From: Occallatibacter savannae
Lineage (GTDB): Bacteria; Acidobacteriota; Terriglobia; Terriglobales; Acidobacteriaceae
DNA: 64,000 nucleotides
Direction of reading: 5' to 3'
Assembly: GCF_003131205.1 (NCBI RefSeq)
Contig: NZ_QFFY01000005.1
Coordinates: forward strand, 124,001 to 188,000
Shown here: one piece after another, positions 2,504 through 53,310 of the stretch
Layout of the letters: each line of letters opens with the position of its first letter
Position numbering within the stretch: the first letter of the stretch is position 1
The notes under the pieces: generated by a model
The model's database searches: none
What the model was told of the DNA's origin: nothing
The model's input: the letters and a program-made list of their open reading frames with translations, nothing else
Program-made: the position numbers and the translations under genes

Positions 2504-3768
2504 ATGTCGCACAAGCTAGGGTCTTTTTTTCTGCTCACGGCAGTTGTGGCCACGAGTCTGTCGCAGTTGGCTGCAGCGCAAAAGTTTCAGCCCAAATCCA
2601 TTCAATTCAAAGGAGCAGAGGGATATTCGGATGAGGACCTCATCTCCGCAGCCGGGCTGAAAAAAGGCGTGGTCATGGATTATGCCGAGATGAACGATCG
2701 CACGAAGCAGCTGCTGGATACCGGCCTGTTTTCGACGCTAGCTTTCAAGTTCGATGGTCAAAATCTGATCTTTACCCTTACCCCCGCTACCAATCTCTAT
2801 CCCATCCATCTGGACAATTTGCCTCTGGACCAGGGTGCGGAGCTGGATGCCAAGATTCACAATCTCGTTCCGCTCTACTACGGGAAGCTCCCTTCGGAGG
2901 GTGGAATCACAGAAGCGGTCCGCGGGGCTCTTGAAAAGATTCTTGCGGAGCAGGGCTTCCAAGCAACCGTCACGGCTATTCCTGGCACGGTAGCGGGACA
3001 AGGGAGCACTGTTCACTTCTCAATTTCTGCGCCTCCCGTGTTCGTTGGGTCGATTCAACCGACAGCCAATTCCAAGCCTCTTGATCAGGGAGCATTTGAC
3101 ATCGTCTCAAAGATGACGTCCTGGGCAGTGCGAGCCAGATAATCACGTATCTCGGCAATTACTATCATGACAAAGGCTACCTAGAAGCCTTGGTGGAGGC
3201 CAAGCCACAAAAAGCAGCGCTCGCCGATGGCTCCATTCGCGTGCCATTTAGGGTTTCGGTGGAGCCGGGCAGTCAATATCGACTTGCCGCAGTACGGCTG
3301 GCGCCAGAAATCGTCGTTAGCCAAGCCGACTTCGATAAACAGGCTCATCTACATTCCGGAGATATTGCCGACGGCCAGCATGTGACAGAGAACTGGGAGT
3401 ATATAAGCCGTCAGTACCACAATCATGGATACATGAAGGCCAGCGTGCATCCCACCCCGACGTTCGATCGAGTAAAAGGGACCGTAAGCTACGACGTGAT
3501 GGCAGATCCGGGTCCGATTTACGCGATAGGCGCACTTTCGATTGAGAACGTGAGTGACGACCTCCGGGCTCAAATGATGGCAGCTTGAAAAATGCCGGCA
3601 GGCGCAACCTTTAATGAAGGGGCAATCCGGAGCTTCTTCGCGATCGATGGGACAGTCAATCCGAAGCTTAATCGAATATTTGCAGCAACCAGCTGTAGCT
3701 ACACGCTGCATTTGAACGACGAGAAACGAACGGTTGACGTGACTTTACGCCTGGATCGAAAGAAGTAG
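2504..3768 (+). pseudogene. POTRA-repeat (Omp85/BamA N-terminal-like) secreted protein, disrupted by a frameshift and a nonsense codon
   Basis: ORF 2504..3142 (signal peptide, POTRA-like) shifts near 3108 into the frame of ORF 3190..3588 (FDIVSK/DDVLGSASQIITYLGNYYHDKGYLEALVEAKP). In-frame TGA at 3586 is followed by KMPAGATFNEGAIRSFFAIDG...TLRLDRKK* ending at 3768. Confidence 0.7.
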
Positions 3769-3839
3769 ATTTCTAGTAATTGGAGGGAAGAGGCATCCTT
3801 TTCCCTGTGGACGAGGCCAGGAGATCCAGAAAGCTCGCA

Positions 3840-5390
3840 CTACTCCCACTCAATGGTTCCGGGCGGCTTTGAGGTGATGTCGTAAACCACACGATTGATC
3901 CCGCGAACTTCGTTTACGATCCGGCTTGAGATTCTTTTCAAAACCTCATGCGGCAGGAAGGTCCAGTCCGCAGTCATGCCGTCTTCAGAGTGCACGGCGC
4001 GGATCGCGCAGGTGTAGGCGTACGTACGCTGATCGCCCATGACGCCGACGCTCATCACCGGAAGCAGAACGGCAAAGCTCTGCCAGATGCGGTTGTAGAG
4101 ACCCGCGGCCTTGATTTCGCTGACGACGATATCGTCGGCCTCCTGAAGCAGCGCGACGCGATCTGCCGTCACCTCACCGAGGATGCGCACGGCGAGTCCT
4201 GGGCCAGGGAACGGCTGGCGGCCGAGAATGTCTTCGGGCATGCCCATGTCGCGGCCGATACGGCGCACTTCGTCTTTAAAGAGGTCGCGGAGAGGCTCGA
4301 TGAGCTTGAGCTTCATGGTCTCCGGCAGACCGCCCACGTTGTGGTGGCTCTTGATGGTCTGGCTGGGGCCTTTGACGGAGGATGACTCGATGACGTCGGG
4401 ATAGAGCGTGCCCTGGACGAGCCAGTCGACACCTCCGGTTTCTGCGGCGATGCGGTGGGCCTCGTCGTCGAAGACGGCGATGAACTCTGCGCCGATGCGT
4501 TTGCGCTTGGTTTCGGGATCGGTGACTCCGGCGAGCTGCTTGAGAAAGCGATCGCTGGCGTCGACGGCGACGAGGTTCAGGCCGAGTTTGTCGCGCAGAT
4601 TCTTCTGGACGTTTTCAAATTCGTTTTTGCGCAGGACGCCGTTGTTGACGAAGACGCAGGTGAGCTGGTTGCCGATGGCTTTGTGGACGAGGACGGCGGC
4701 GACGGAGGAGTCGACACCACCGGATAGCCCGCAGATGACGTGACCGGAGCCGACCTTTTCGCGGATGGAGGCGACGGTGGACTCGATGAAGTGGGCAGGC
4801 GTCCAGTCGCCGCGCGCGCCACAGATATTGAAGACGAAGTTCTTGATGAGCTGCGGACCGAGGGGCGTGTGGTGAACTTCCGGGTGGAATTGCACGGCCC
4901 AGATCCGGCGCTCTTCATTGGCGATGGCTGCCAGCGCGTTCGAAGTAACCGCCGCGCGCTTGAACCCTGCAGGCAGTTCCAGGGCTTCATCGCCATGGCT
5001 CATCCAAACCTGGATCGCTTCCGGCAACCCCTGGAAGAGCTTGATGGATGTGTCTTCGAGGGCGACTTCGGCATGGCCGTACTCGCGTTTGGGGGCGGTC
5101 CTGACCTTCCCGCCGAGGTGGTGAACGATGAAGTGGAGTCCGTAGCAGATGCCGAGAGTTGGCAGGTTGAGCTGCAGAAGGGCCGGGTCGGCCTTCGGCG
5201 CGTCGGCGTCATAAACCGAAGACGGGCCGCCCGACAGGATGATCCCAAGGGGCTTGTAAGACTGGACTTCAGAGACCGGTACCGTGCAGGGAAGCACGAC
5301 CGAGAAGACGTTGAGTTCGCGGATGCGGCGCGCGATCAGCTGCGTGTACTGCGATCCGAAGTCGAGGATAACGATGGTTTGGGTGTCCAC
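3840..5390 (-). CDS. guaA: GMP synthase (glutamine-hydrolysing)
   Basis: Full-length 516 aa; [42 protein letters not shown]-terminal [18 protein letters not shown]. Confidence 0.98.
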
Positions 5391-6909: not shown

Positions 6910-8073
6910 ATGAAAATGAAGCAAGCCGCTCTAGCGCTTCTCCCCTTTGCGCTGTCCAGCACCTTTCTCGCCGCTGAGAAACCCGAGCATGACCGCGCTG
7001 TACCGCGGATCGATCATGCGTTCGTGATTTTGATGGAGAACCATGCCTATAGCCAGATTCTCGGAAACACCAACGCTCCTTTCATCAACAGCTATGGCAA
7101 GTCTGCAAACCTCGCGACCAACTACTACGCCGTCGGCCATCCGAGCTTGACCAATTACCTGGAGATCGTGGGCGGTTCGAACTTCGGCATCATTAACGAT
7201 GATTCGCCCGATTGGCACAACACCTCGTGCACGCCGAACATCGTGAGCGGCATCCCGGCCGACGAAACGGCAACCACCAATACGTGCCCCATCAAGGGAG
7301 CTGGCTGGGACGCGGCGACGCCCGCCGTTGACACAACCAACGAAGGCACCCCGCAGGAGCCGGTCTATAACTTCCCGCTGTCGCCTGCGTTCACGCGCGG
7401 CATCAGCATTGCGGATCAGCTGGTGGAAGCCGGCAAGAGCTGGAAGTCATACCAGGAGAACCTGCCGCCCTACGGTGCAGACGGCGTGAACAACAGCGAC
7501 GGACTCGTTTCCGACGTCACCGAGAAAGAGCCGGGTATGCCCAAGCTCTACGCGGTCAAGCACGATCCGTTTGCCTACTTTGCCAGCGTTCAGTCTGGAG
7601 AGGATCGCAAGCTGAGCCTGAAGCAGATCGTTGGCTTTGATCGGCTCTGGGCGGACCTTGAGAGGGGCGACGTACCGGATCTGGCGTTCATTGCTCCGAA
7701 TCAGTGCCACGATCAACACGGACGTGGAACGAGTGAAGTGGGCACCGGATGCTCTGTCGACCAGAACGCGATCGCGCAAGGCGATGCGGGTTTGCACACC
7801 ATCATTGACGGCATCAAGAATTCGAGGGCCTGGAAGCACGGCAACAACGTAATCGTAGTGGTGTGGGACGAGAACGACTACAGCAGCCTGCCCAATCAGG
7901 TTGTCACGATCGTCGACACGAACTATGCCCCCACGGGAATCCAGAGCAACGTTCGCTATAACCACTTCTCCCTGCTGAAGACGCTGGAAGCGGGCTTCGG
8001 GCTGCCGTATCTGAACCACGCTGCAGATCAGGATGTGAAGCTGATGGGCGACCTGTTCACCGGACAGAAGTAA
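6910..8073 (+). CDS. Secreted phosphoesterase / acid phosphatase family protein
   Basis: Signal peptide; IDHAFVILMENHAYSQILGNTNAPFINSYGKSANLATNYYAVGHPSLTNYLEIVGGSNFGI; IVVVWDENDY. Confidence 0.85.
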   Translation: MKMKQAALALLPFALSSTFLAAEKPEHDRAVPRIDHAFVILMENHAYSQILGNTNAPFINSYGKSANLATNYYAVGHPSLTNYLEIVGGSNFGIINDDSPDWHNTSCTPNIVSGIPADETATTNTCPIKGAGWDAATPAVDTTNEGTPQEPVYNFPLSPAFTRGISIADQLVEAGKSWKSYQENLPPYGADGVNNSDGLVSDVTEKEPGMPKLYAVKHDPFAYFASVQSGEDRKLSLKQIVGFDRLWADLERGDVPDLAFIAPNQCHDQHGRGTSEVGTGCSVDQNAIAQGDAGLHTIIDGIKNSRAWKHGNNVIVVVWDENDYSSLPNQVVTIVDTNYAPTGIQSNVRYNHFSLLKTLEAGFGLPYLNHAADQDVKLMGDLFTGQK

Positions 8074-8087
8074 AGCTGCAAACGTAG

Positions 8088-8122
8088 AAAGCGCCGGTCA
8101 GCGGAAAGCTGGCCGGCGCTTT
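8088..8122 (+). terminator. Hairpin terminator candidate
   Basis: AAAGCGCCGG-(15 nt)-CCGGCGCTTT immediately after the 6910..8073 gene. Confidence 0.6.
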
Positions 8123-8187
8123 GGCTTTACAGGCTGTGCGCCGTTCGTCGCGCTCTTTACGATGGCGTCGCTTATCGGCGACTTGAC

Positions 8188-9507
8188 TTATCTAATCTCG
8201 GCGCCGTTCTGCTTGTAGACCACGCCGGCCTTCATCACGAACTTCACGTCCTGCAAAGTCCGCACGTCGTCTATCGGGTTCTTATCGACAGCGATGATAT
8301 CCGCCCACTTGCCGGGTTCGAGCGTTCCCGTCTTTGCCGTCAGGCCGAGGAGGTCGGCGGCGTTGATCGTCGCCGTTTGCAGCGCCGCAAGCGGCGTCAT
8401 TCCGAGTTGATTCACGTAGACGTCAACCTCATGTGCGTTCAGGCCATGCGGATAGACAGCAGCATCGGTTCCGAGAGCAATCTTCACGCCGGACTGCATT
8501 GCATGCTTGATGTTCTGCTTGGCGACCGAGCTTACGTCGACCATTTTCTTGTGATAGAACGCAGGGAGCTGGCCCTTCTCGATCTGCCAGTCCTCGAGGT
8601 AGAGGGTAGGCACCAGATAGGTCCCGTGCTTCTTCATCATGGCGATCGCGGCATCATCAATGTAGCTGCCATGCTCGATGGAATCGACTCCTGCCTCACT
8701 TGCCCACAGAATGCCCTGCGCTCCATGTGCGTGCGCCGCGACTTTGCGGCCCAGGCGATGAGCGTCCGCCACAATGGCCTGCATTTCTTCCAACGTGTAT
8801 TGCGAAGCCTGAGGGTCGTCGCCTTTCGAGAGGACTCCGCCTGTAGCGCAGATCTTGATTACGTCTGCTCCGTACTTGATGTTCTCGCGAACTTTGTGTT
8901 GCACCTGTGCGATGCCGTCTGCCACGCCATCCCCGACAGAGTGGTATTGCGCGGGCAACAGGTTGTCATCGCAGTGGCCCCCGGTGATGCCCATGGCGGG
9001 TCCGCTAACCAGCATGTGCGGACCAGCCACCTGGCCGGCATTCACCGCGTCGCGAAGATCGACATCCGTAAAACCGCCGGCTCCCACGTTTCGGACCGTG
9101 GTGAAACCCGACATTAGCGTCTTGCGGGCGTTGACGACTCCATTGATCGCTTCTTTCGCGCTAGTCGAAGTGACTTCGCGGAAGGGATCGAAGTCGGGGT
9201 TCATGGTCAGGTGGGTGTGCACGTCCATCAAGCCGGGGAGAACCGTCGCGCCGCCGAGGTCAATCACCTCGTCGCCGGGCTGCTGCGACACGGAAGCGGT
9301 AGCGCCGATGGACTGGATGGACTCGCCCACGACAACGATGGTCTGAGCGTCAGAGAGCTTGCCGGTTTTGACATCGAGCAGGTGCCCGGCGCGAATGAGG
9401 GTTCGCTTCCCCGATTTGGCGTCCTGCTGAGCAGGTGAGGAGGTCGAGGCGGCAAATGCGTACAATACAACGCACGAACAAAGAGTGAGCTTCAACTTCA
9501 AGAGCAT
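8188..9507 (-). CDS. Secreted amidohydrolase family protein (imidazolonepropionase/prolidase-like)
   Basis: Signal peptide; VLPGLMDVHTHLTMNPDFDP, GADVIKICATGGVLS, VAAHAHGAQG, ALGTDAAVYPHG. Confidence 0.92.
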   Translation of the reverse strand: MLLKLKLTLCSCVVLYAFAASTSSPAQQDAKSGKRTLIRAGHLLDVKTGKLSDAQTIVVVGESIQSIGATASVSQQPGDEVIDLGGATVLPGLMDVHTHLTMNPDFDPFREVTSTSAKEAINGVVNARKTLMSGFTTVRNVGAGGFTDVDLRDAVNAGQVAGPHMLVSGPAMGITGGHCDDNLLPAQYHSVGDGVADGIAQVQHKVRENIKYGADVIKICATGGVLSKGDDPQASQYTLEEMQAIVADAHRLGRKVAAHAHGAQGILWASEAGVDSIEHGSYIDDAAIAMMKKHGTYLVPTLYLEDWQIEKGQLPAFYHKKMVDVSSVAKQNIKHAMQSGVKIALGTDAAVYPHGLNAHEVDVYVNQLGMTPLAALQTATINAADLLGLTAKTGTLEPGKWADIIAVDKNPIDDVRTLQDVKFVMKAGVVYKQNGAEIR

Positions 9508-9727
9508 GGATTTTCTTTCTCCGTCTGAGGCTGTTGACGGAGTTTAGCAAAGCGCCGCTCTTGTGCGTCCAGCCAAATCTCAGTCTCTTGCGTAGCCCTA
9601 TAATGCGGAATGCGGTGGCGTAGTCGTCTCAAAGGCCTCTAAGCCGCCATGCATGGCCTACTTCTGGCGATCGCACGTTGATGCCACGAGGCGTAGCCAA
9701 TTTCCGTCTCATCCCAAGGAGAACGCA

Positions 9728-11800
9728 ATGCACGTATCCCGGGTTGTCGTCCCTGTCCTGCTCGCCGCAGGAATCACTTTTGGTCAGTGCCAATCGAAAG
9801 AAGATGCAAAGCCGGCGCCTCCAGTGGCGCCGAAGAGTTTTGATGAATCGGCAATCGATAAGAGCGCCGATCCCTGTACCGATTTCTATCAGTACGCTTG
9901 CGGGAATTGGGTGAAGAACAATCCCATTCCGAATGATCAAGTACGGTGGGGAACATTCTCGATTCTTGCCGAGCGCAATCGCTACCTGCTTTGGGAGGAG
10001 CTCGATGCCGCAGCGAAGGATCCGAAGACCCCGCTGCAGAAGAAGTATGGCGATTACTACTCCGCGTGTATGAACACGGATCTCATCGACAAAAAAGGTA
10101 CCGAGCCGATCAAGCCTGCGTTGGATGAGATAGCCGGCCTTCAGGACACGAAGCGCCTGGCATCCCTGGTAGGCGAACTCGCACAGAAGGGCGATCCGGC
10201 GCCGTTGTTCCGATTCGGCGTTCAGCAGGATGAGAAAGACTCAAGCCGCCAGATTGCGAGCCTCTTCCAGGCAGGGCTCTCCCTGCCCGATCGCGATTTC
10301 TACCTGGTGGACAACAAGCGCTACACCACCATCCGGCAGCAATATCACGAGCACCTGACCAAGATGTTCACGCTCGCTGGTGACACCCCGGAGCAGGCGG
10401 CCAAGGAAGCCGAAGCGGTCATGACGATCGAAACGGCGCTCGCCAAGGTTTCGACACCGCGCGTTGAACTGCGCGATCCAGCCAAGCGGTACCACATCTA
10501 TACAGTGGCCGACCTCCGGAAGCTGACACCGGATTTTGACTACTCGGTCTTCTTCAAAGACGTAAACGTAAGGCCCTTCGATACGCTGAACGTCGGAACG
10601 CCGGACTTCTTCAGAGGCCTGAACGAACTGATCGCTTCACAGCCGGTGGACGCCTGGAAGTCGTACATGCGGTGGCATGTGATCCACGGTTCCGCGGGCG
10701 ATCTGCCGAAAGCGTTCCGGGACGAGGATTTCGCATTCTTCGACAAAACGCTGAGCGGCCAGGCAGAACCCACTCCTCGCTGGAAGGAGTGCACCGCCGA
10801 TACCGACCGCGCTTTGGGAGAAGCCGTGGGCCAGGACTGGGTGAAAGCTCACTTCCCGCCGAAGTCGAAGGCCAGCATGGATCAGCTTGTCGCCGCGCTG
10901 GACAAAGCGCTCGGCGACGACATCAAGACGCTGCCCTGGATGAGCGACGAAACCAAAAAGGCTGCCGAAGCGAAGCTCGCACTCTACCGGAACAAGATCG
11001 GCTATCCGGAAAAGTGGCGGGACTATTCTTCTCTGAGCGTCAACCGGGACGACGCCCTGGGGAACGGGCATCGCAGCGCGGTTTTCCAGCGGAACTACAA
11101 CCTGAACAAGCTGGGCAAGCCGGTCGACGAAAAAGAGTGGGGCATGACTCCCCCGACCGTCAATGCGTATTACAGCCCGTCAAACAACGACATCAACTTC
11201 CCGGCCGGCATCCTGCAGCCGCCGTTCTTCGATCCAGATATCGACCCGGCGGTAAATTTCGGTGGCATCGGCGTCGTCATCGGCCATGAAATGACGCACG
11301 GCTTCGACGACCAGGGATCGAAATACGACGGCAAGGGCAATCTGCGCGAATGGCAGACCGCCGATGACCGGAAGAAGTTCGAAGAGCGCACCGACTGCGA
11401 AGTCAAGGAGTATGGCGGCTTTGAGACGGCGCCCGCACATGACGGAATTCCGGCGCAAAACCTCAACGGCAAGCTCACCCTGGGCGAAAACACGGCGGAT
11501 AACGGCGGCCTGCGTATCGCTTACATGGCCCTGCTGGATACGCTGGCCAGCGAGCATAAGACGATGGACGAAAAGATCGGCGGCTACACCGAGGCGCAGC
11601 GTTTCTTCATCGGCTTCGCGCAGGTGTGGTGTTCGAACCAGACTGAGCAGTCCGCGCGGCAACTGGCGCTGATCGATCCGCACTCTCCGGGCAAGTGGCG
11701 CACCAACGGAAGCGTGCAGAACTTCGACGAGTTCAGCAAGGCCTTCGGCTGCCATAAAGGCCAGCCCATGTATCCGGAGAATTCCTGCCGGGTCTGGTAA
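9728..11800 (+). CDS. M13 family metallopeptidase (neprilysin-like)
   Basis: DPCTDFYQYACGNWVKNNPIP; zinc motif VIGHEMTHGFDDQGSKYDGKGN; GENTADNGGL; C-terminal YPENSCRVW. Confidence 0.97.
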   Translation: MHVSRVVVPVLLAAGITFGQCQSKEDAKPAPPVAPKSFDESAIDKSADPCTDFYQYACGNWVKNNPIPNDQVRWGTFSILAERNRYLLWEELDAAAKDPKTPLQKKYGDYYSACMNTDLIDKKGTEPIKPALDEIAGLQDTKRLASLVGELAQKGDPAPLFRFGVQQDEKDSSRQIASLFQAGLSLPDRDFYLVDNKRYTTIRQQYHEHLTKMFTLAGDTPEQAAKEAEAVMTIETALAKVSTPRVELRDPAKRYHIYTVADLRKLTPDFDYSVFFKDVNVRPFDTLNVGTPDFFRGLNELIASQPVDAWKSYMRWHVIHGSAGDLPKAFRDEDFAFFDKTLSGQAEPTPRWKECTADTDRALGEAVGQDWVKAHFPPKSKASMDQLVAALDKALGDDIKTLPWMSDETKKAAEAKLALYRNKIGYPEKWRDYSSLSVNRDDALGNGHRSAVFQRNYNLNKLGKPVDEKEWGMTPPTVNAYYSPSNNDINFPAGILQPPFFDPDIDPAVNFGGIGVVIGHEMTHGFDDQGSKYDGKGNLREWQTADDRKKFEERTDCEVKEYGGFETAPAHDGIPAQNLNGKLTLGENTADNGGLRIAYMALLDTLASEHKTMDEKIGGYTEAQRFFIGFAQVWCSNQTEQSARQLALIDPHSPGKWRTNGSVQNFDEFSKAFGCHKGQPMYPENSCRVW

Positions 11801-43848: not shown

Positions 43849-44730
43849 ATGGAGCGCATACGGGTGCGCGCAAGTTGGCAGGAACGTTTTGCCGAGGCCA
43901 GTGATGTTCTGAAGAGTTCACAACGCCAGCAGACAGTTGTGCGGGTGTTGGATCTTGAGATCGGTGGCAGCGACTTCATCACCATGGCCGGTCCCTGCTC
44001 GGTAGAAACCGAGCAGCAGATTCTCTCCATCGCTGCCCACGTGCGCAAGCAGGGCGCCCGGGTTCTCCGCGGCGGGGCGTTTAAACCGCGCAGTTCTCCC
44101 TATGCGTTTCAAGGACTCGGCCTTGCGGGCCTGAAACTGCTCGCGAAAGCGCGTTCTGAGACAGGTCTTGCCATCGTCACGGAAGTGATGAGCGAGGATG
44201 ATGTTCCGCTTGTCGCCGAATATGCAGACATTTTGCAGATCGGCTCGCGCAGCATGGAGAACTACACACTGATCGAGGCGGCGGCGAGATCAGGTAAGCC
44301 GATCCTGCTGAAGCGCGGCATGATGGCCACGGTTGAAGACCTAATGCGATCTGCGCAACTGGCGATCGGCGCCGGGAATCCGAACGTAATTCTGTGCGAG
44401 CGCGGGATCCGCACCTTCGATAATGCTCTGCGCAACACCTATGACCCGGCGGCTATTGCGCTGCTGAAGCAGATTTCGCATCTTCCGGTCATCGCGGATC
44501 CCAGTCATGCGTGCGGACACCGTGAACTGGTTCCCGCACTGGCCCGCATTGGAGTTGCGGCCGGAGCCGACGGCATGATCGTTGAAGTGCATCCGCAACC
44601 GGAAAAGGCGTGGAGCGATGGGGAGCAGTCGCTCAGCTTTGACGAGTTCGACGGGATGATGGCAATGCTCGAGCCCTACATCGCTCTTCGCGGAGCAGCG
44701 AACCGCACACTTGTGGGGAGAGTTGGATGA
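43849..44730 (+). CDS. aroF: 3-deoxy-7-phosphoheptulonate (DAHP) synthase, type I-beta
   Basis: [69 protein letters not shown]. Confidence 0.94.
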
Positions 44731-46139
44731 AGCTCGGGTTCAAAGTGCATTATGCTGTCGGCTGCCTTGGCATTCTGAGCTTTTCGTGTGGGTTCGCGCC
44801 TCCTCCGTCACAATCGATTGGCGCAGACGTGATTGTCACGGCGGCTCCCATTTACGAGGAACTCGCTGCTGTGCACGGCGGCGAACGATTCCCGCACGGC
44901 GCGAGGCTACTGCTCATCCACAACGGCACGGCGACGCCGCTGCTGCCCGGATTTGCAGGCAGCGCTGATGCGAGCGTTTCGTTTGATGGCTCGGCCGTGT
45001 TGTTCTCCGGCAGGAAAGATGCGGGAGATGCGTGGCAGATCTACGAGCTTACTCTGTCTGATCGCAAGGTACGGCGCATCAGCGAGTCGACGAGCGATGC
45101 CATTCGCCCGCTGTATTTGCCGGGCTGGCGGCTCGTATATGCGCAGAAGAGCGGCGCTCATTTTCAGATGATCTCGGCGCGTCTCGCTGACACCGAGGCG
45201 ATACAGGAGATTGAAGGCAAGGGAGTGCCGACGGCTTTTCCGATCTCCTTTGCGGCGGTGAGTGCCATTCCTTCGGATGTTATGGCCGACGGACGCATTC
45301 TTTTCGAGTCGGGGTTCCCGCTGGGGGAAGGAGGAACTCCCGAGCTATACCTTGCGTACTCCGATGGGTCGGGCGTTGAGTCTTACCGGTGTGATCACCC
45401 CACGAAGGAATTGGACGCTCGTTATGGCGGCCATCAACTTACCTCGGGTGATGTGGTTTTCACACACGGCGCGCGTCTCGCGCGATTCAGCTCACCGATG
45501 GCTCAGGAAGAAGGTATCCCCGCTCCGCCAGCTGACTATGCGGGACGTATCGCCGAAGCCGGATCAGGTGACTGGCTCTTCAGCGTGCGAAAATCTGTGA
45601 CCGACAGCTTTGCGCTGAAACTCTGGAGGCCCGGCTCGCCGGGCTTGCGATCCTTCTTCGCGCAGACCGGGTCGAATCTGATTGATCCGGTCCTCGTGGC
45701 TGCACGCAACAGACCGCGCCGACATCCCTCTGCTTTGCACGACTGGGATTACGCCAATCTTCTGGCGCTCGACACTCGAATTTCTCGCGACGGTCCGCTT
45801 ACTGCGGCTCCGGCGAGCGTGCGGCTCGAGACACGAGACGATTCCGGACGCGCCGTTACGATGGGCACTGCTCCGGTCGAGGCGGATGGATCCTTCTTCG
45901 TCAAGGCTCCGGCGGATCGACCGATTCGGTTCGCGCTTCTTGACGCGAGAGGAGAAATTATCCGCCAGGAGCACGGCTGGTTCTGGAGTCGCCGCGGCGA
46001 GCAGAGGTATTGCGTAGGTTGTCACGCTGGCCCTGAGCATGCGCCGGAGAATCGCGTGCCGGCTGTTCTGACGCGAACGACAATGCCGGTGGATCTTACG
46101 GGCACGGCTTCGCAGCAGCCGCAAAGGGGAGGGAACTAG
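44727..46139 (+). CDS. Propeller protein with C-terminal heme motif, hydrazine-synthase-alpha (HzsA)-related
   Basis: Lipobox-like N-terminus; TolB-like blades (SVSFDGSAVLFSGRKDAGDAWQIYEL); C-terminal GWFWSRRGEQRYCVGCHAGPEHAPENRVP; ATGA overlap with aroF. Confidence 0.65.
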   Translation: MKLGFKVHYAVGCLGILSFSCGFAPPPSQSIGADVIVTAAPIYEELAAVHGGERFPHGARLLLIHNGTATPLLPGFAGSADASVSFDGSAVLFSGRKDAGDAWQIYELTLSDRKVRRISESTSDAIRPLYLPGWRLVYAQKSGAHFQMISARLADTEAIQEIEGKGVPTAFPISFAAVSAIPSDVMADGRILFESGFPLGEGGTPELYLAYSDGSGVESYRCDHPTKELDARYGGHQLTSGDVVFTHGARLARFSSPMAQEEGIPAPPADYAGRIAEAGSGDWLFSVRKSVTDSFALKLWRPGSPGLRSFFAQTGSNLIDPVLVAARNRPRRHPSALHDWDYANLLALDTRISRDGPLTAAPASVRLETRDDSGRAVTMGTAPVEADGSFFVKAPADRPIRFALLDARGEIIRQEHGWFWSRRGEQRYCVGCHAGPEHAPENRVPAVLTRTTMPVDLTGTASQQPQRGGN

Positions 46140-46140
46140 G

Positions 46141-47811
46141 ATGCTTTGGCGCACGGTGTTGGTCTGCTTCCTCTTCTCGGTGATGAGTGCAGCACAGAGC
46201 CCGCCCACTGCTGGAAATGTGGCGGGCGGTCCGGAGACGGCGACCGGCAAAGCCTTCATCCGGTTTGAAGACGCGAGCGAAAAGGCGGGGATCAATTTCA
46301 CGCACAGCTTTGGTTCGGCGAAGCTTGGGTCTTTGCTCGAGGGAACTGGTGCGGGCTGTGTTTGGTTTGACTACGACAATGATGGTCTGCCGGATCTCTA
46401 CATCGCAAATGGCCGGCCGCTCGAAGATTCGATGCATCCGTATCCGCTGAAGCAGAAGCCTATTCCGGCTCCGCACAATCACCTGTACCACAACGACGGA
46501 ACCGGACACTTCACGGATGTGACGGACAAGGCCGGCCTTAATCCGGATGTGTACTCGATCGCAGTTGCCGCCGCTGACTACGATAACGACGGTTCGGTCG
46601 ATCTGCTGGTGACGGCGTACGGCAAGGCGATTCTGTATCACAACGATGGGAACGGCCACTTCACGGATGTGAGTGCCAAGGCTGGGATCGAGTTGGAAGG
46701 TTGGGCCATCAGTTCCACATGGTTTGACTATGACAGAGACGGTTGCCTCGATCTGTTCGTGGGGCGCTACGTCAAATTTGACCCGAAATACCGCGCCTAC
46801 TATGCGGCTGATAACTATCCGGGTCCGCTCGACTACGAAGGCGAAACCAACAAGCTCTACCACAACAATTGCAATGGGACGTTCACGGATGTGAGCGAAA
46901 AGTCGGGGATCAGCAACTTTATCGGCCGCACAATGGGCGTGACTGCCGCCGACTTAGATGGCGATGGATGGGACGACATCTATGTCGCGAACGACCGCAC
47001 GGAAAACTTCCTGTTCCACAACAAGCACGATGGGACGTTTGAGGAGATCGGGAACGATTCGGGAACTGCGTACGGACAGAACGGAGAGTCTACTTCATCG
47101 ATGGGACCGGTGTTCGCCGATATTGAGGGGCGGGGTGTGCTGGACCTGTGGGTTTCCGACGGCCACTATAACCGGATGCTTCGCAACACCGGCAAGCTGG
47201 CGTTCGAAGACATCGGGGCGAGCAACGGAGTGTCGCAAGCCAACGCGCAATACGTGAGTTGGGGAACCAGCCTTTACGACTTCGACAATGATGGCGCGCT
47301 CGATCTGCTGATCTTTCACGGCGGGCTGATCCATCTGATACCGCAGGAGCATACGGTCTTTAAAGGGCTAGGCAACGCGAAGTTCGCCGATGTTTCTGAA
47401 GCCGCGGGGAGTGTGATCAACGAGCGCACCGTGGCGCGCGGAGCATGCTTTGCGGATTACGACAACGACGGCAAGGTTGATGCGTTTCTCGTGAACCTAG
47501 GCGCGAAAGGCAAGCTGGTGCGCAACGTCTCAACGAATACCGGGCATTGGGTGGCCATCAAACTCGTCGGCACAAAAAGCAATCGCGAGGGCATTGGGGC
47601 TAAGGTTGAGGTTTTTGCAGGGCCGAAGCATGAACTGCAGGAGCGCGTGGCAGGGTCGGGCTACCTATCTCAGAACGAGGCGCGGCTGCACTTCGGGCTC
47701 GGAGAGGCGGCAACGATTGACAGGATCGTGGTCAAATGGCCGAGCGGCCGCGAGCAGACTCTGGAGAAGCAGCAAGCTGATCGAGTACTGACGATCGAGG
47801 AGCCGAAGTGA
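46141..47811 (+). CDS. CRTAC1 family protein (FG-GAP/VCBS repeats + ASPIC/UnbV)
   Basis: VWFDYDNDGLPDLYIANGRP, AAADYDNDGSVDLLVTAYGK, GIGAKVEVFAGPKHELQERVAGSGYLSQNEARLHFGLGEAATIDRIVVKWPSGREQ. Confidence 0.95.
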   Translation: MLWRTVLVCFLFSVMSAAQSPPTAGNVAGGPETATGKAFIRFEDASEKAGINFTHSFGSAKLGSLLEGTGAGCVWFDYDNDGLPDLYIANGRPLEDSMHPYPLKQKPIPAPHNHLYHNDGTGHFTDVTDKAGLNPDVYSIAVAAADYDNDGSVDLLVTAYGKAILYHNDGNGHFTDVSAKAGIELEGWAISSTWFDYDRDGCLDLFVGRYVKFDPKYRAYYAADNYPGPLDYEGETNKLYHNNCNGTFTDVSEKSGISNFIGRTMGVTAADLDGDGWDDIYVANDRTENFLFHNKHDGTFEEIGNDSGTAYGQNGESTSSMGPVFADIEGRGVLDLWVSDGHYNRMLRNTGKLAFEDIGASNGVSQANAQYVSWGTSLYDFDNDGALDLLIFHGGLIHLIPQEHTVFKGLGNAKFADVSEAAGSVINERTVARGACFADYDNDGKVDAFLVNLGAKGKLVRNVSTNTGHWVAIKLVGTKSNREGIGAKVEVFAGPKHELQERVAGSGYLSQNEARLHFGLGEAATIDRIVVKWPSGREQTLEKQQADRVLTIEEPK

Positions 47812-49715
47812 GTTTGCTTCGCTCAGGCTCCGCCCGTGCTGCCGCCGTGACTGCGGTGGTGCTGGTATGTAGCTGGGCGATTGCCGTATGGAAGGATAGC
47901 GGCACTGTTGTGAGCGCCGCGACCTCGAGAGCGCAGACAGGCGAAGTGCTCGAGTATGCGTCTCCCGTGGAAATGCTTTTCTCTCTTAGCGGACGACAGC
48001 TGTACGTGCTGTGCCAAGGAACCGGCGAGGTTCGCGTCCTGGACGCCACAACATATGCGGAGAGGAAACGGATCCAAGTGGGTCGTTCGCCGCGCGGACT
48101 CTCTCTTTCGGCCAATGGCGAGCTGCTCTACGTTGCAAACTCCTGGGATGACACGATCTCCGTAATCGACACGAAGAACCTGTCTGTGAGTGCAACCTGG
48201 CCGGTTTCCGCGGAGCCATCGAGTGTGGTCGCCGACCGTACAGGAAGATACATCTACGTAGCGAACCGGATTTCGAACGATGTTGCCGTGCTTGACGCCC
48301 GAACTGGAATGGAAGAGAAGCGGCTGGCTGCAGGACGAGGAGCAAGCTACATCACGGCCTCGCCGGACGCGAGCAAGCTGTACGTCACGCACGTCTATCC
48401 CAATCTCACGCCGCTCCGCACCGCACCCGAGTCTGAAATAACGGTGATCGATGTACGGCGCGCTGTGGTTGCGGAGCGAATCGCTCTTCCCTACATTGCG
48501 CACGGCTTTCATGTCACGTTTTCTGCTGATGGAAATCTTGGCGCAGCAGCAGGGCTGCACCCGAAGAACCTTCCGCCGCTGGCACATCTGGAACATGGCG
48601 GTGCCTTTGCCGACAGCATCACCGTGTTCGGGTCTGATGTGGGCCAGCCTGTCGAGCTGCCCCTGGACGAACTGGAGCGCTATTCGGTTCGCCCGTTTGG
48701 TGTCGCGATCACGCCGGATAAGTCGCGCCTCTTTGTCACATGCGGCGGCTCGGAAGAGGTCACGGTCATCGATGTGCCGCGGATGCTCCGTTACGTTCAC
48801 GCGCATCCTGGGTCGCACGCCACGGATCTTTCGGCCAGCGCTAACTATGTTGTCGCCCGAGTGAAGGTCGGACATGATCCACGGGGCGCTCTGCTCGCGC
48901 GCGGCGGTACGAAGCTGCTGGTCGCCAACCGGCTCGACGATACGATGAGCGTGATCGATACGCGCACGAACAGAGTCACGTCGACTGTCCCTCTTGCAGG
49001 GCCGAGAGAGAATTCCGTTCTCCGCAATGGCGAGCAGACGTTCTATACGGCGCGCTACTCGTTTCAGGGGCAGATCGGGTGCGCAAACTGCCATATCGAT
49101 TCCACCTTCGATGGGCTGCAGTGGGATCTCGAGCCTGACGGGTTCGGACGCGACATCGTCGACAACCGGCCGATCGAGGCGGTGAAGGATACCGAGCCGT
49201 ACAAGTGGAACGGTGGCAATCCGAACCTGCCCACGGAGTGCGGGCCGCGTACGGAGAAGTTCTTCTGGCGCGCGGAGAACTATGACGATCTGACGTTGAC
49301 CGATCTCGTGGTCTACGTACGAAGCCTTCCGCCACGTCCGAACCGATCGAGGCCGGCTAACGGCGAGTTTTCTGCGGCTCAGGAGCGCGGGAGAGCCCTG
49401 TTCAATCGCACGACAGACAAATTTCACAACCCGATCGCCGAGGGAAATCGCTGCGGTTATTGTCACAGCGGGGCTAAGGGTACAAATCAGAAATCCTTCG
49501 ATGTTGGGACGAAAAGGGCCAGCGATAACACTGGTCTTCTCGATACGCCGCAACTTATCAACATCGCCATCACTGGCCCGTATCTTCACGATGGATCGGC
49601 GCAGACGCTGGAACAGATCTGGACCGTTTTCAATCCTGAGGACAAGCATGGCCGTACAAACGACCTGACTAAAGACGAACTTAACGACCTGATCGAATAC
49701 CTGAGGACGCGATGA
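47808..49715 (+). CDS. YVTN beta-propeller fused to di-heme cytochrome c peroxidase-like domain
   Basis: LLYVANSWDDTISVIDTKNL blades; two CXXCH motifs (IGCANCHIDST, NRCGYCHSGAKG); LLDTPQLINIAITGPYLHDGSAQTLEQIWTVF; GTGA overlap with the upstream gene. Confidence 0.92.
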   Translation: MSLLRSGSARAAAVTAVVLVCSWAIAVWKDSGTVVSAATSRAQTGEVLEYASPVEMLFSLSGRQLYVLCQGTGEVRVLDATTYAERKRIQVGRSPRGLSLSANGELLYVANSWDDTISVIDTKNLSVSATWPVSAEPSSVVADRTGRYIYVANRISNDVAVLDARTGMEEKRLAAGRGASYITASPDASKLYVTHVYPNLTPLRTAPESEITVIDVRRAVVAERIALPYIAHGFHVTFSADGNLGAAAGLHPKNLPPLAHLEHGGAFADSITVFGSDVGQPVELPLDELERYSVRPFGVAITPDKSRLFVTCGGSEEVTVIDVPRMLRYVHAHPGSHATDLSASANYVVARVKVGHDPRGALLARGGTKLLVANRLDDTMSVIDTRTNRVTSTVPLAGPRENSVLRNGEQTFYTARYSFQGQIGCANCHIDSTFDGLQWDLEPDGFGRDIVDNRPIEAVKDTEPYKWNGGNPNLPTECGPRTEKFFWRAENYDDLTLTDLVVYVRSLPPRPNRSRPANGEFSAAQERGRALFNRTTDKFHNPIAEGNRCGYCHSGAKGTNQKSFDVGTKRASDNTGLLDTPQLINIAITGPYLHDGSAQTLEQIWTVFNPEDKHGRTNDLTKDELNDLIEYLRTR

Positions 49716-50848
49716 AAGCTTTCGTTAAAGTCGCAACGTTCCTATTGCTGCTGGCGCCCACAGCCATCGCTGTTCAGGCGCAGGCGCATATTGGAGCTCC
49801 GCGGATCAAAAAGGCTGCGGCATCGGATCTCAAGCCGCAGGTTCAGGCAATGCCGCGGTTCCGGTTTGAGAACTTCACGACAGCGAATGGGCTGCCGGAC
49901 GATCACGTGTTCAATGTGCTGGTGGATGGGGATCGCATCTGGGCTGCGACTGAGAACGGCCTCGGGCTCTATGAAAACGGGAAGTGGAAGACGTACACCA
50001 CGAAGGATGGGCTCGCGCATCGCGCTGTTTTGTCGCTGGCGCTCGACAAGCGGACAGGCGACGTGTGGGCCGGCACCATGGGGGGGCTGAGCCGCATCTC
50101 GGGCGGCCGCATTGACAGTTTCAACCAACTGAATTCTGGCCTCAGCAACGATGTTGTGTACGGCGTGTCGGTAGAGGGCGAGCACGTGTGGGTGGCAACG
50201 GCTGCCGGCGCTTGTATGTTCGATCTCCGCACCCATGCATGGTCGCTCTTCAACGAGCGCAATACGCCGATGGCGGAGATCTGGGTATACGGAGTTTCTG
50301 CGACTCCGAGCAAGGTGTATTTCGCCGTGTGGGGCAGCGGACTGCTGGAGTACGACCAGCAGAAGAAGACGTGGGACAAGTACGACGATCCGGATGGCGA
50401 AACGGAGATGGTCCTCTTTAGAGATCAGGGCCTCATACACGAGATCACGACGTCGGTGAGCTATCTGGAAAAGGACAAGATTGTATGGGTGGCCACCTAC
50501 TTTGGCGACAGCCGTTACGACGGCCGCAACTGGCACAACTTCCTGACGAAGGACAGCGGACTGCCTTCGAACTTCACCAACGTGGTGAAGGGAGTGGACG
50601 CGAATCACGCATGGTTCGGGACCGACAAGGGGCTTGCGTACTACGACGGCGTGAACTGGGTCGTTTACCGGCCGTCTCTCACTAGCGGCAAGCCAGAGAT
50701 GACGGTCCGAGACAGAGACGCGCAGGTTACGCCGGTAGAGGTGAGCACCGCGCCCGCACACAACTACATTCTGGGAATTGATTTCCAGGGGAGCGACATA
50801 TGGGTCGCTACCGCCAAGGGTTTAAGCCACGGGATACGTCAACCATAA
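49712..50848 (+). CDS. Two-component-regulator-type propeller protein without kinase domain
   Basis: TTANGLPDDHVFNVLVDGDRIWAATENGLGLYENGKWKTYTTKDGLAHRAVLSLALDKRTGDVWAGTMGGLSRIS; ATGA overlap with the upstream gene. Confidence 0.88.
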   Translation: MKAFVKVATFLLLLAPTAIAVQAQAHIGAPRIKKAAASDLKPQVQAMPRFRFENFTTANGLPDDHVFNVLVDGDRIWAATENGLGLYENGKWKTYTTKDGLAHRAVLSLALDKRTGDVWAGTMGGLSRISGGRIDSFNQLNSGLSNDVVYGVSVEGEHVWVATAAGACMFDLRTHAWSLFNERNTPMAEIWVYGVSATPSKVYFAVWGSGLLEYDQQKKTWDKYDDPDGETEMVLFRDQGLIHEITTSVSYLEKDKIVWVATYFGDSRYDGRNWHNFLTKDSGLPSNFTNVVKGVDANHAWFGTDKGLAYYDGVNWVVYRPSLTSGKPEMTVRDRDAQVTPVEVSTAPAHNYILGIDFQGSDIWVATAKGLSHGIRQP

Positions 50849-50862
50849 GGAGCTATAACGCC

Positions 50863-51354
50863 ATGATCGATCTTGCAGAAGTTCTGGAAACCATCGCCAA
50901 GGCGCCAGTCAAGAAGCGCGCCATGACCAACCACGGAGTACTGAACGAGGCGTACGCATACGCGAAGCCGAGCTCGTTTTCGCGCGGCATGCGCATCGAC
51001 CTGAACGGCCTCACCATTCTTCTGATTTCAGGGACCGCTTCGATTGATGAGCATGGGCAAAGCGTGCACATCGGCGACTTCCGCGCGCAGCTTCGCCGAA
51101 CGTACGACAACATTACGGGCCTGTTGGCAAGCGAAGGCTGCACCTGGCATGACATCGTGCGGACGACCTGCTATCTGCGCGATATCGATCGCGACTACGA
51201 AGCTTTCAACGAAGAGCGCACAAAGTTCTTTGCCGAGCAGGGCCTTGATCCTCTGCCAGCCTCGACAGGGATTCAAGCCCATCTTTGCCGTCCCGAACTC
51301 CTGATCGAGATTGAAGCGATCGCGATGTTCCGAACGGAGAAGACAGCGAAGTAG
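50863..51354 (+). CDS. RidA/YjgF/chorismatase-superfamily protein
   Basis: LLISGTASIDEHGQSVHIGDFRAQLRRTYDNITGLLASEGCTWHDIVRTTCYLRDIDRDYEAFNEERTKFFAEQGLDPLPASTGIQAHLCRPELLIEIEAIAMF. Confidence 0.85.
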   Translation: MIDLAEVLETIAKAPVKKRAMTNHGVLNEAYAYAKPSSFSRGMRIDLNGLTILLISGTASIDEHGQSVHIGDFRAQLRRTYDNITGLLASEGCTWHDIVRTTCYLRDIDRDYEAFNEERTKFFAEQGLDPLPASTGIQAHLCRPELLIEIEAIAMFRTEKTAK

Positions 51355-51369: not shown

Positions 51370-53310
51370 ATGCGCAGACAGTTGTTGATCGGCTTAGTCG
51401 CTGCCGCGATGAGCACCGCATCTGCTCAGCAGACGAGGACTTGCGAGTGCGGGAAGAATCCACCGGATCCCCCGCGAGACCGTGTGGTGAAGCCTTACGC
51501 GGGCGAACCGACGGATCTGAGCCCCTATGAGAAGTTTGCGCAGCCCTACGACCTGAACTACGTGAAGCGCAATATCTATGTCGGTGCGGGACGAGATATC
51601 CCGGAGCCGAAAGATTTGACGGAGGTCCGCATCGGATTCTTTGCACCGGCGGAGCATAGCCCTGAGAAGCTCTTCGGAGTGCGCATGCTGCACGGGGTGG
51701 AGCTGGCACTGGAAGAGGTGAACGCGCGCGGCGGTTATGGCGGCAAGCCGTTCAAGTTGATGATCCACAATGACTACGACAACTGGCAGGCGATGACGGT
51801 CTCCGGCGCCGATCGTCCGACGGATGCTGCGATCTGGGGGTCTGCGTCCGACGAGACAGTAAAGATGGTGTACGACGACCAGGACTGGGCGATTTTCGGA
51901 TCGATCAGCTCGGAGTCAACGCACATCGCTTTGCGCGTTGCGCTGAAAGCGGAGATTCCGATCGTGAACTCTGCGTCCACAGATCCGACGATTCCCGAGA
52001 CGTATATTCCCTGGTACTTCACGGTTCTGCAGGATGATCGGGTGCAGGGGCTGACGCTAGCGCGGCATATCTATACAGAGCTTGGATTTAAGCGGGTGGC
52101 TCTGCTGCGCGTGAACAGCCGGTACGGACGCTTCGGTGTGATCAAGTTTCGCGATGCTTCGCGGCGCCTTGGGCACCCGGTGGTGATCGAGCAGAAGTTC
52201 CTGCCCGGAGATAGTGATTTCACGCGTTCTTTGAAAATCATTCAATCTTCGCGCGCCGATGCGATTGTGCTGTGGGCCGACGAGATTCCGGCTGCCAACA
52301 TCCTGAAGCAGATGAAGGCGCTGGGCATGAAGCAACGCGTATTCGGTGCGTACCGTGCGCTCGGTCCGGAGCTTCTGGCAGAAGCGGGCCCGGCGGCAGA
52401 AGGGTTTGAAGCTGTGTTTCCGTACGACCCGACGCGAAAAGATGCAAAGTGGCTCGAGTTTAACCAGCGGTTTGAATCTCGATTCCAGGAGAAGCCGGAG
52501 CAGTTCGCGTCGCTCGCGTATGACGCGATGAACGCGCTGCTCGAATCAATTTGCAGGGCAGGGCTGAATCGCGCGCGCATTCACGACGCGCTTGCGGACG
52601 TTGAGGAGTACGACGGCGTTACCGGGCATATGGTCTTCGATCCAAACCAGAAGAATGTGGAACACATGTTTCTGGGAACGGTTCATGATGGAGCGATCAC
52701 GTACAAGCCTGCCACGATGGAGAAGGTTCACCCTGTTGATGAGAGCCGCCCGTCGGAAGCCGGGCAGCAAAGGCCGGATCAAATGCCTTATGCTCGCGTC
52801 GGAGAAGACGGGGTGGAATACAACGGTCCGCGCCGGCTTGGAACGGGATTGGCGGGTGTGAAGATCATCGTGTTCGGCAAGCAGGCGAGAGCGGTTGTGG
52901 AATCGGAGGAGATGCGCAAGGCACTTCCGGCGGGAAACCGCTGCCAGTTGTTGCCGGTTGCGAGCAATCAGAACTGGGGCGCAGCTTCGACGGAGTTGGT
53001 CCGCGACCTCTATGACGAGCATGCGCTGGCGATCGTTGCGCTGGATCGCGATGCCGCTCATCTCGCCGAGCAACTCGCGTTGAAGGCACTCGTTCCAGTG
53101 ATCGCGATCAGCGATGACAAGAGACTCACGTCGACCAATGTTCCCTGGATTTTCCGCCTGCCGGGATCGGCAACTCCGGTAGAGGCAGTGCGACTGATCA
53201 GGTCCGCTTCGGGCGAGGGTGTGCTCAGCGCAGATCGGCTTCGCGAGGTGCTTGCTTCGGGCCGTGAAATCGAGGGGGTTGCGTTCGTCACAACCGGTGA
53301 GCCGAAGTGA
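51370..53310 (+). CDS. ABC-type branched-chain amino acid-like periplasmic binding protein with partial internal repeat
   Basis: VRIGFFAPAEHSPEKLFGVRMLHGVELALEEVNARGGYGGKPFKLMIHNDYDNW...IVNSASTDPTIPETYIPWYFTVLQDDRVQG...ADAIVLWADEIPAANILKQMKALGMKQRVFG. Confidence 0.88.
   Translation: MRRQLLIGLVAAAMSTASAQQTRTCECGKNPPDPPRDRVVKPYAGEPTDLSPYEKFAQPYDLNYVKRNIYVGAGRDIPEPKDLTEVRIGFFAPAEHSPEKLFGVRMLHGVELALEEVNARGGYGGKPFKLMIHNDYDNWQAMTVSGADRPTDAAIWGSASDETVKMVYDDQDWAIFGSISSESTHIALRVALKAEIPIVNSASTDPTIPETYIPWYFTVLQDDRVQGLTLARHIYTELGFKRVALLRVNSRYGRFGVIKFRDASRRLGHPVVIEQKFLPGDSDFTRSLKIIQSSRADAIVLWADEIPAANILKQMKALGMKQRVFGAYRALGPELLAEAGPAAEGFEAVFPYDPTRKDAKWLEFNQRFESRFQEKPEQFASLAYDAMNALLESICRAGLNRARIHDALADVEEYDGVTGHMVFDPNQKNVEHMFLGTVHDGAITYKPATMEKVHPVDESRPSEAGQQRPDQMPYARVGEDGVEYNGPRRLGTGLAGVKIIVFGKQARAVVESEEMRKALPAGNRCQLLPVASNQNWGAASTELVRDLYDEHALAIVALDRDAAHLAEQLALKALVPVIAISDDKRLTSTNVPWIFRLPGSATPVEAVRLIRSASGEGVLSADRLREVLASGREIEGVAFVTTGEPK

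Follow-up and report, generated by a model that had tools for sequence, protein, structure and literature searches.

The window, a stretch of 64,000 nucleotides from the 6.28-Mb genome of the acidobacterium Occallatibacter savannae, contains an operon whose genes are tightly packed, with 4-base overlaps or 1-15-base gaps, and follow one another in the order given here (HZS, hydrazine synthase), with the protein of interest, RIDX, encoded last but one.

43849..44730, + strand: DAHP synthase (AroA/PRK08673 type), 293 aa (390.8 bits, cut-off 335)
44727..46139, + strand: HZS alpha-like monoheme protein, predicted to be exported (PF18582 1.7e-15; one CxxCH)
46141..47811, + strand: FG-GAP / ASPIC-UnbV (CRTAC1-like) protein, predicted to be exported (domain search)
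47808..49715, + strand: HZS beta-gamma-like fusion with two CxxCH, predicted to be exported (NF052342 1.6e-47, 162 of 1250 bits)
49712..50848, + strand: regulator-propeller-repeat protein, predicted to be exported (PF07494 1.5e-9)
50863..51354, + strand: RIDX, single-domain YjgF/RidA-fold protein, putatively chorismatase-like, 163 aa (PF01042 E 2.4e-18)
51370..53310, + strand: type I periplasmic ligand-binding protein, LivK-like (PF13458 1.4e-45)

The DAHP synthase looks cytoplasmic, as does RIDX, in which no signal peptide is apparent and which is thus probably a cytoplasmic protein; the other five products carry hydrophobic signal-like N-termini and look exported. The heme proteins of alpha-like and beta-gamma-like type, with the CRTAC1-like protein between them (44727-49715), score far below the hydrazine synthase cut-offs.

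The open frame of RIDX is preceded by AAGGAG before its ATG, a good ribosome-binding site, and the PF01042 match together with matches to RidA folds places the protein in the YjgF/YER057c/UK114 superfamily. The preliminary description had proposed a RidA-fold protein with Ser at the usual Arg position, and this is borne out: the C-terminal text reads as quoted there, and Ser134 stands in the column of RidA Arg105. Most of the relatives sampled have an ortholog (58-94% identity), so the PASTGI-type motif is conserved rather than a product of chance, and in more distant relatives the identity of RIDX is the highest among the operon genes. A single genome scan for relatives returned 80 loci, the named records among them being acidobacterial, and the relatives found on plasmids were only Rid proteins with less than 60% identity.

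Against the curated model of FkbO/Hyg5 chorismatases (TIGR04444), RIDX scores 33.9 of 325 bits over model positions 188-310 only, which lies below the cut-off, and all 38 RIDX orthologs match this model weakly; PF21168 (FkbO_Hyg5-like_N) finds no match in RIDX, which is a single domain and not a fused chain of ~310-350 aa. The RidA models score slightly higher, with 48.5 of 106.25 bits (TIGR00004) and 53.5 of 169.1 bits (RutC), and both values are again below the cut-offs. As such, RIDX should be filed neither as a chorismatase nor as a RidA member, and the subfamily assignment on which the earlier proposal was to be judged decides for neither family; the protein is best described as putatively chorismatase-like in mechanism. 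The monomer model (pLDDT 81.5) has a YjgF fold nearest to RidA, with TM-scores of about 0.5-0.7, and Foldseek returns RidA structures first, with FkbO/Hyg5 absent from the top 50. The predicted monomer confirms the fold only and does not separate the hypotheses. These matches bear on a first alternative, namely that RIDX is an imine/enamine deaminase of divergent RidA type, with the substrate carboxylate bound by R143, R41 or R119 instead of Arg105: the fold is the same, the chorismatase model scores slightly lower than those of RutC and RidA, and the top sequence and fold matches in the PDB are RidA proteins.

Further insights come from the residues themselves, which were compared in an alignment of 24 RIDX rows, 9 C domains of fused multi-domain relatives, 25 RidA-type proteins and 21 C domains of chorismatases, Hyg5 and FkbO among them. 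The motifs of interest are the following.

50977..50988, + strand: FSRG motif F39-G42 including R41, a chorismatase C-domain signature (residue alignment)
51028..51042, + strand: SGTAS S56-S60, with G57 = Hyg5 G240 and T58 in place of RidA Gln (alignment; CH-II residue, PMC7170507)
51196..51219, + strand: YxxFxxxR Y112-R119, a chorismatase central-domain signature (profile/alignment)
51256..51273, + strand: PASTGI P132-I137, with S134 = RidA Arg105 column and G136 = Hyg5 G173 / Nat-hyg5 G164 (alignment; PMC7170507)
51286..51315, + strand: CRPELLIEIE C142-E151, with C142 = Hyg5 C327 and E149 = putative catalytic Glu (Hyg5 E334, FkbO E338) (alignment; PMC7170507, PMC4960622)

In raw counts, taken without phylogenetic correction, R41 is present in 24/24 RIDX rows, 9/9 fused relatives and 21/21 chorismatase C domains, and the 25 RidA-type proteins mostly have Gln there (Q13/P3/H2/gap). 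T58 occurs in all 54 rows of the first three groups (24/24, 9/9 and 21/21) against 1/25 RidA, which mostly carry Gln, and R143 is equally invariant (24/24, 9/9, 21/21) against 2/25 RidA, where Pro prevails. C142 is found in 24/24 RIDX rows, 9/9 fused relatives and 20 of the 21 chorismatase C domains, the exception being FkbO with Ala, and in 0/25 RidA, which mostly have Leu. The YxxFxxxR signature appears in 1/22 RidA. E149, present in 24/24 RIDX rows and aligned with the catalytic Glu of Hyg5 (E334), would be necessary for an enzyme of the chorismatase type and is not diagnostic of it, because RidA proteins have the same Glu.

The 3-hydroxybenzoate (3-HBA) type of chorismatase, CH-II, is defined by Gly-164, Gly-231 and Cys-318 in Nat-hyg5 numbering (PMC7170507), which map onto G173, G240 and C327 of Hyg5. 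By alignment, RIDX carries these residues as G136 (21/24 rows), G57 (24/24) and C142 (24/24). The pocket of the RidA-type protein TdcF consists of Tyr17, Gly31, Asn56, Asn88, Arg105, Pro114 and Glu120 (PMC1884159); RIDX still has G57, N83, N116 and E149 for the Gly, the two Asn and the Glu, a retention that also suits a deaminase, and changes Arg105 to Ser, Tyr17 to Phe and Pro114 to Arg, the last two as in chorismatases. Imine hydrolysis requires Arg105 (PMC4433059), yet Ser134 replaces it in all 24 RIDX rows, and the residues that have changed are those common to chorismatases. Moreover, the conserved neighbor is a DAHP synthase, and neither a PLP enzyme nor an amine oxidase was noted. We consider a deaminase quite unlikely on these grounds.

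The preliminary description had derived its chorismatase idea from PASTGI, and here its reasoning holds only in part. Ordinary Rid paralogs in these bacteria (L236, L246, L230, L002) likewise have Ser, Ala or Gly at the Arg105 column, and about 10% of RidA proteins have Ser at this position (PMC4433059), so PAST by itself is no pointer to chorismatases; it was rejected as sole evidence, and the Arg105-to-Ser substitution is the weakest part of the chorismatase case. With the curated cut-offs also unreached, the idea draws instead on R41, T58, C142, R143 and E149, on a match to the chorismatase central domain, on the exchange with fused relatives and on the link to DAHP synthase.

The fused relatives are proteins of about 370-440 aa, three of four tested matching PF21168 at 9e-6 to 2e-3. 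The long forms contain three YjgF-like stretches, with matches of the first domain to RidA (3.3e-13) and to the central domain (5e-15); in seven of them (L263, L264, L265, L266, L268, L269, L253), the first stretch is degenerate and the motifs lie in the central and last ones. Because these proteins score far below the TIGR04444 cut-off (47.8 bits), their own chorismatase activity is likewise only presumed. TIGR04444-type chorismatases, none above the curated cut-off, were seen in 19/297 sampled acidobacterial genomes (L054-L072), nearly all with the 3-hydroxybenzoate-type Cys.

RIDX resembles two domains of the fused relatives. It shares 40% identity with their C-terminal domain (132 columns, 2.8e-45), profile comparison giving 1.5e-46 for this domain and 5.6e-35 for RidA, and its residues 42-140 share 36% identity with their central domain (2.7e-27), in an alignment that includes VRTxxYLRDIxRDYxxxNxxRxxFF...PASTGI. 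Residues 97-139 match the central domain of chorismatases (YxxFxxxR...PASTGI), which supports the view that a single RIDX chain may hold both half-sites, as an unfused homotrimer would need. Chorismatases reportedly are monomeric and show pseudo-threefold symmetry, their active site lying where the central domain adjoins the C-terminal one, as described in the FkbO structure paper (Juneja et al., J Mol Biol 2014). In RidA trimers, the ligand site is inter-subunit, with the SG segment of one subunit next to the neighbor's Arg segment (PMC4960622), and in the TdcF-type trimer Glu120 contacts residue 107 of the neighbor (PMC1884159). A RIDX homotrimer would therefore join a C-domain-like and a central-domain-like side three times. 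The interface pair Lys136-Glu182 of the AtRidA trimer (PMC4960622) is kept in RIDX as R100 and E151, the latter lying within CRPELLIEIE, and the protein may form a homotrimer with inter-subunit sites. The earlier doubt that a protein of about 163 aa is only half the size of known chorismatases is correct as to size, the protein being a single domain, and need be no obstacle if the chain holds both half-sites.

Could RIDX simply be a broken-off C-terminal piece of a fused gene? One tree places RIDX as a single group (92/90) between RidA and chorismatase-type C domains. In a second tree, the central domains of the fused relatives make up one group (100/100) and their C domains another (99/98), and two divergent RIDX rows stand apart from the remainder; in both trees, RIDX falls inside neither the RidA nor the fused C-domain group. 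The separate grouping of the two fused domains, the position of RIDX outside the C-domain group (99/98) and its central-domain motif led to the rejection of this explanation.

The fused relatives furthermore stand in for RIDX in four genomic contexts. Within the hydrazine-synthase-like operon, a fused relative takes the place of RIDX in L251 and L253, the latter also with a DAHP synthase, and fused relatives lie beside a DAHP synthase in L253 and L265. Beside TPR-PD40 genes, RIDX is found in L155, L159, L209 and L213 and fused relatives in L266 and L269; beside PSD1-DUF1501 genes, RIDX is found in L145, L154, L158 and L205 and a fused relative in L268. The four RIDX loci of this last context have no nearby DAHP synthase and lie directly before a PSD1/PSCyt2 cytochrome gene, with DUF1501 in three. 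One further genome (L053) has both the RIDX operon and a second cluster (3471-5003, 8827-9930) of TlpA-like, alpha-like, beta-gamma-like and fused chorismatase-like genes, in which the fused relative follows the second alpha-like / beta-gamma-like pair.

Nearly every carrier within the genus has the operon, which is also present in other orders and classes. Among 396 surveyed genomes of the phylum, 19 have the beta-gamma-like gene, and all 19 carry RIDX or a fused relative. At E<=1e-22, such a protein is found in 18 of these 19 carriers against 32/396 overall (hypergeometric P 1.4e-21, phylogeny ignored); the nineteenth (G129) has a fused relative inside the operon itself. Counted by family, the figures are 9/9 against 14 of at least 81 (P about 8e-9, with phylogeny within and between families ignored). 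The link of RIDX to the exported hydrazine-synthase-like proteins is strong as an association. A plasmid search for the beta-gamma-like protein gave no match.

The DAHP synthase that the preliminary description saw in the same run is indeed the first gene of the operon (43849-44730). In 66 of 109 distinct RIDX loci, such a gene is co-directional with RIDX, and it is never opposed; the loci without it are mostly contig-end cuts or second copies, and in about a dozen with ample flanks it is absent nearby. Its position varies from the upstream operon end in one lineage to downstream of RIDX in others, and outside the hydrazine-synthase-like operon it follows RIDX by 6-104 bp in L043, L168, L204, L209, L213 and L216. 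As the genome encodes three other DAHP synthases, besides a KDO8P synthase, and the link is kept while gene order differs, a chance linkage to a housekeeping enzyme is unlikely. The operon enzyme (293 aa) is without the N-terminal region of its longer paralogs, which would fit a dedicated, unregulated supply; so shortened, it may escape feedback control. In a distant genome (L168), a LigB-type ring-opening dioxygenase (7631-8443, - strand; PF02900 2.3e-32) ends a run of RIDX and DAHP synthase genes, with an Rrf2 regulator upstream. This dioxygenase was set aside as evidence, being a single occurrence.

The residue identities, the conservation of the operon and the exchange with multi-domain relatives are compatible with a model in which RIDX is a conserved, unfused single-domain enzyme of the chorismatase type, to which we assign a probability of roughly 0.6 as the best reading, and which probably converts chorismate to 3-hydroxybenzoate and pyruvate. 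RIDX would form a cytoplasmic, RidA-like homotrimer with each active site between two subunits, one contributing F39, R41, G57, T58, C142, R143 and E149 as the C-domain side and the other contributing Y112, N116, R119 and P132-G136 as the central-domain side. The Glu of chorismatases protonates the methylene of chorismate (PMC7170507), and E149 would likewise protonate its enolpyruvyl methylene, releasing pyruvate, while the Hyg5-type residues G136, G57 and C142 would favor 3-hydroxybenzoate. The operon DAHP synthase would supply the chorismate, and the aromatic product may be used by the operon's exported proteins, namely those of hydrazine-synthase-like, CRTAC1 and ligand-binding type.

The same cleavage of an enol ether might instead act on another substrate (isochorismate, aminodeoxychorismate or EPSP) or yield another product (4-hydroxybenzoate or a dihydroxycyclohexadiene). 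The catalytic Glu and the pocket are kept, but RIDX has TGIQ where Hyg5/FkbO have TGIG; a homotrimer may bind differently, and several products are known within the chorismatase family (PMC7170507, PMC4685789). All three published Hyg5-type residues are nevertheless present, and we regard this variant as unlikely. Many YjgF proteins, furthermore, have no known activity, and the operon partners are mostly exported, which would suit a protein without catalytic activity that binds or regulates, sensing an aromatic or keto acid on the operon's behalf; as the putative catalytic residues rank with the best-conserved positions in the operon's most conserved gene, such a sensor appears very improbable.

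The chorismatase-type reading raises a doubtful extension: RIDX may be a living unfused form of chorismatase, a homotrimer that cleaves chorismate at three equivalent sites, and the exported HZS-like complexes may depend on its product as a small-molecule substrate, ligand or redox mediator. If a 163-aa protein has both half-sites, it would represent the unfused state suggested by the internal symmetry of chorismatases and would show a route by which a RidA-like pocket came to cleave chorismate; it would also be a small catalyst for 3-hydroxybenzoate that lends itself to testing. A dedicated chorismate branch would, additionally, offer a metabolic clue to what non-anammox hydrazine-synthase-like clusters may handle. 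If this extension is true, the same operons exchange one enzyme between its fused and its unfused version, and an aromatic acid takes part in the chemistry of the non-anammox hydrazine-synthase relatives.

To our knowledge, the characterized chorismatases are all large fused proteins, and searches of the open literature found no single-domain chorismatase. With the Hyg5-type enzyme (CH-II, 3-hydroxybenzoate synthase, PDB 5AG3), RIDX shares FxR, SGTAS, CRx[DE]LLxE, the catalytic Glu, the three type-defining residues and the central-domain YxxFxxxR...PA[AS]TGI; Hyg5, however, is fused, with about 340 aa and the second Gly of TGIG, whereas RIDX has one domain in 163 aa, Q138 and a score below the TIGR04444 cut-off. 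The FkbO-type enzyme (CH-I, PDB 4BPS) has the same C-domain fold and a catalytic Glu338, but is fused and carries Ala244 and Ala331 in place of G57 and C142. The imine deaminases RidA, TdcF and RutC are like RIDX in their single YjgF domain, probable trimer and pocket Gly, Asn and Glu, whereas RIDX is without Arg105 and differs by Tyr17 to Phe, Gln to Arg41, Gln to Thr58 and Leu-Pro to Cys142-Arg143. Finally, the hydrazine-synthase-like clusters outside anammox bacteria, described in December 2025 (PMC12758564), contain the same alpha-like, CRTAC1, beta-gamma-like and ligand-binding genes as the present operon, and the order of the alpha-like, CRTAC1 and beta-gamma-like genes at 44727-49715 agrees with the one reported there; RidA and DAHP synthase are both absent from the paper's main text, and what is new here is the steady presence of RIDX and DAHP synthase in or beside the cluster.
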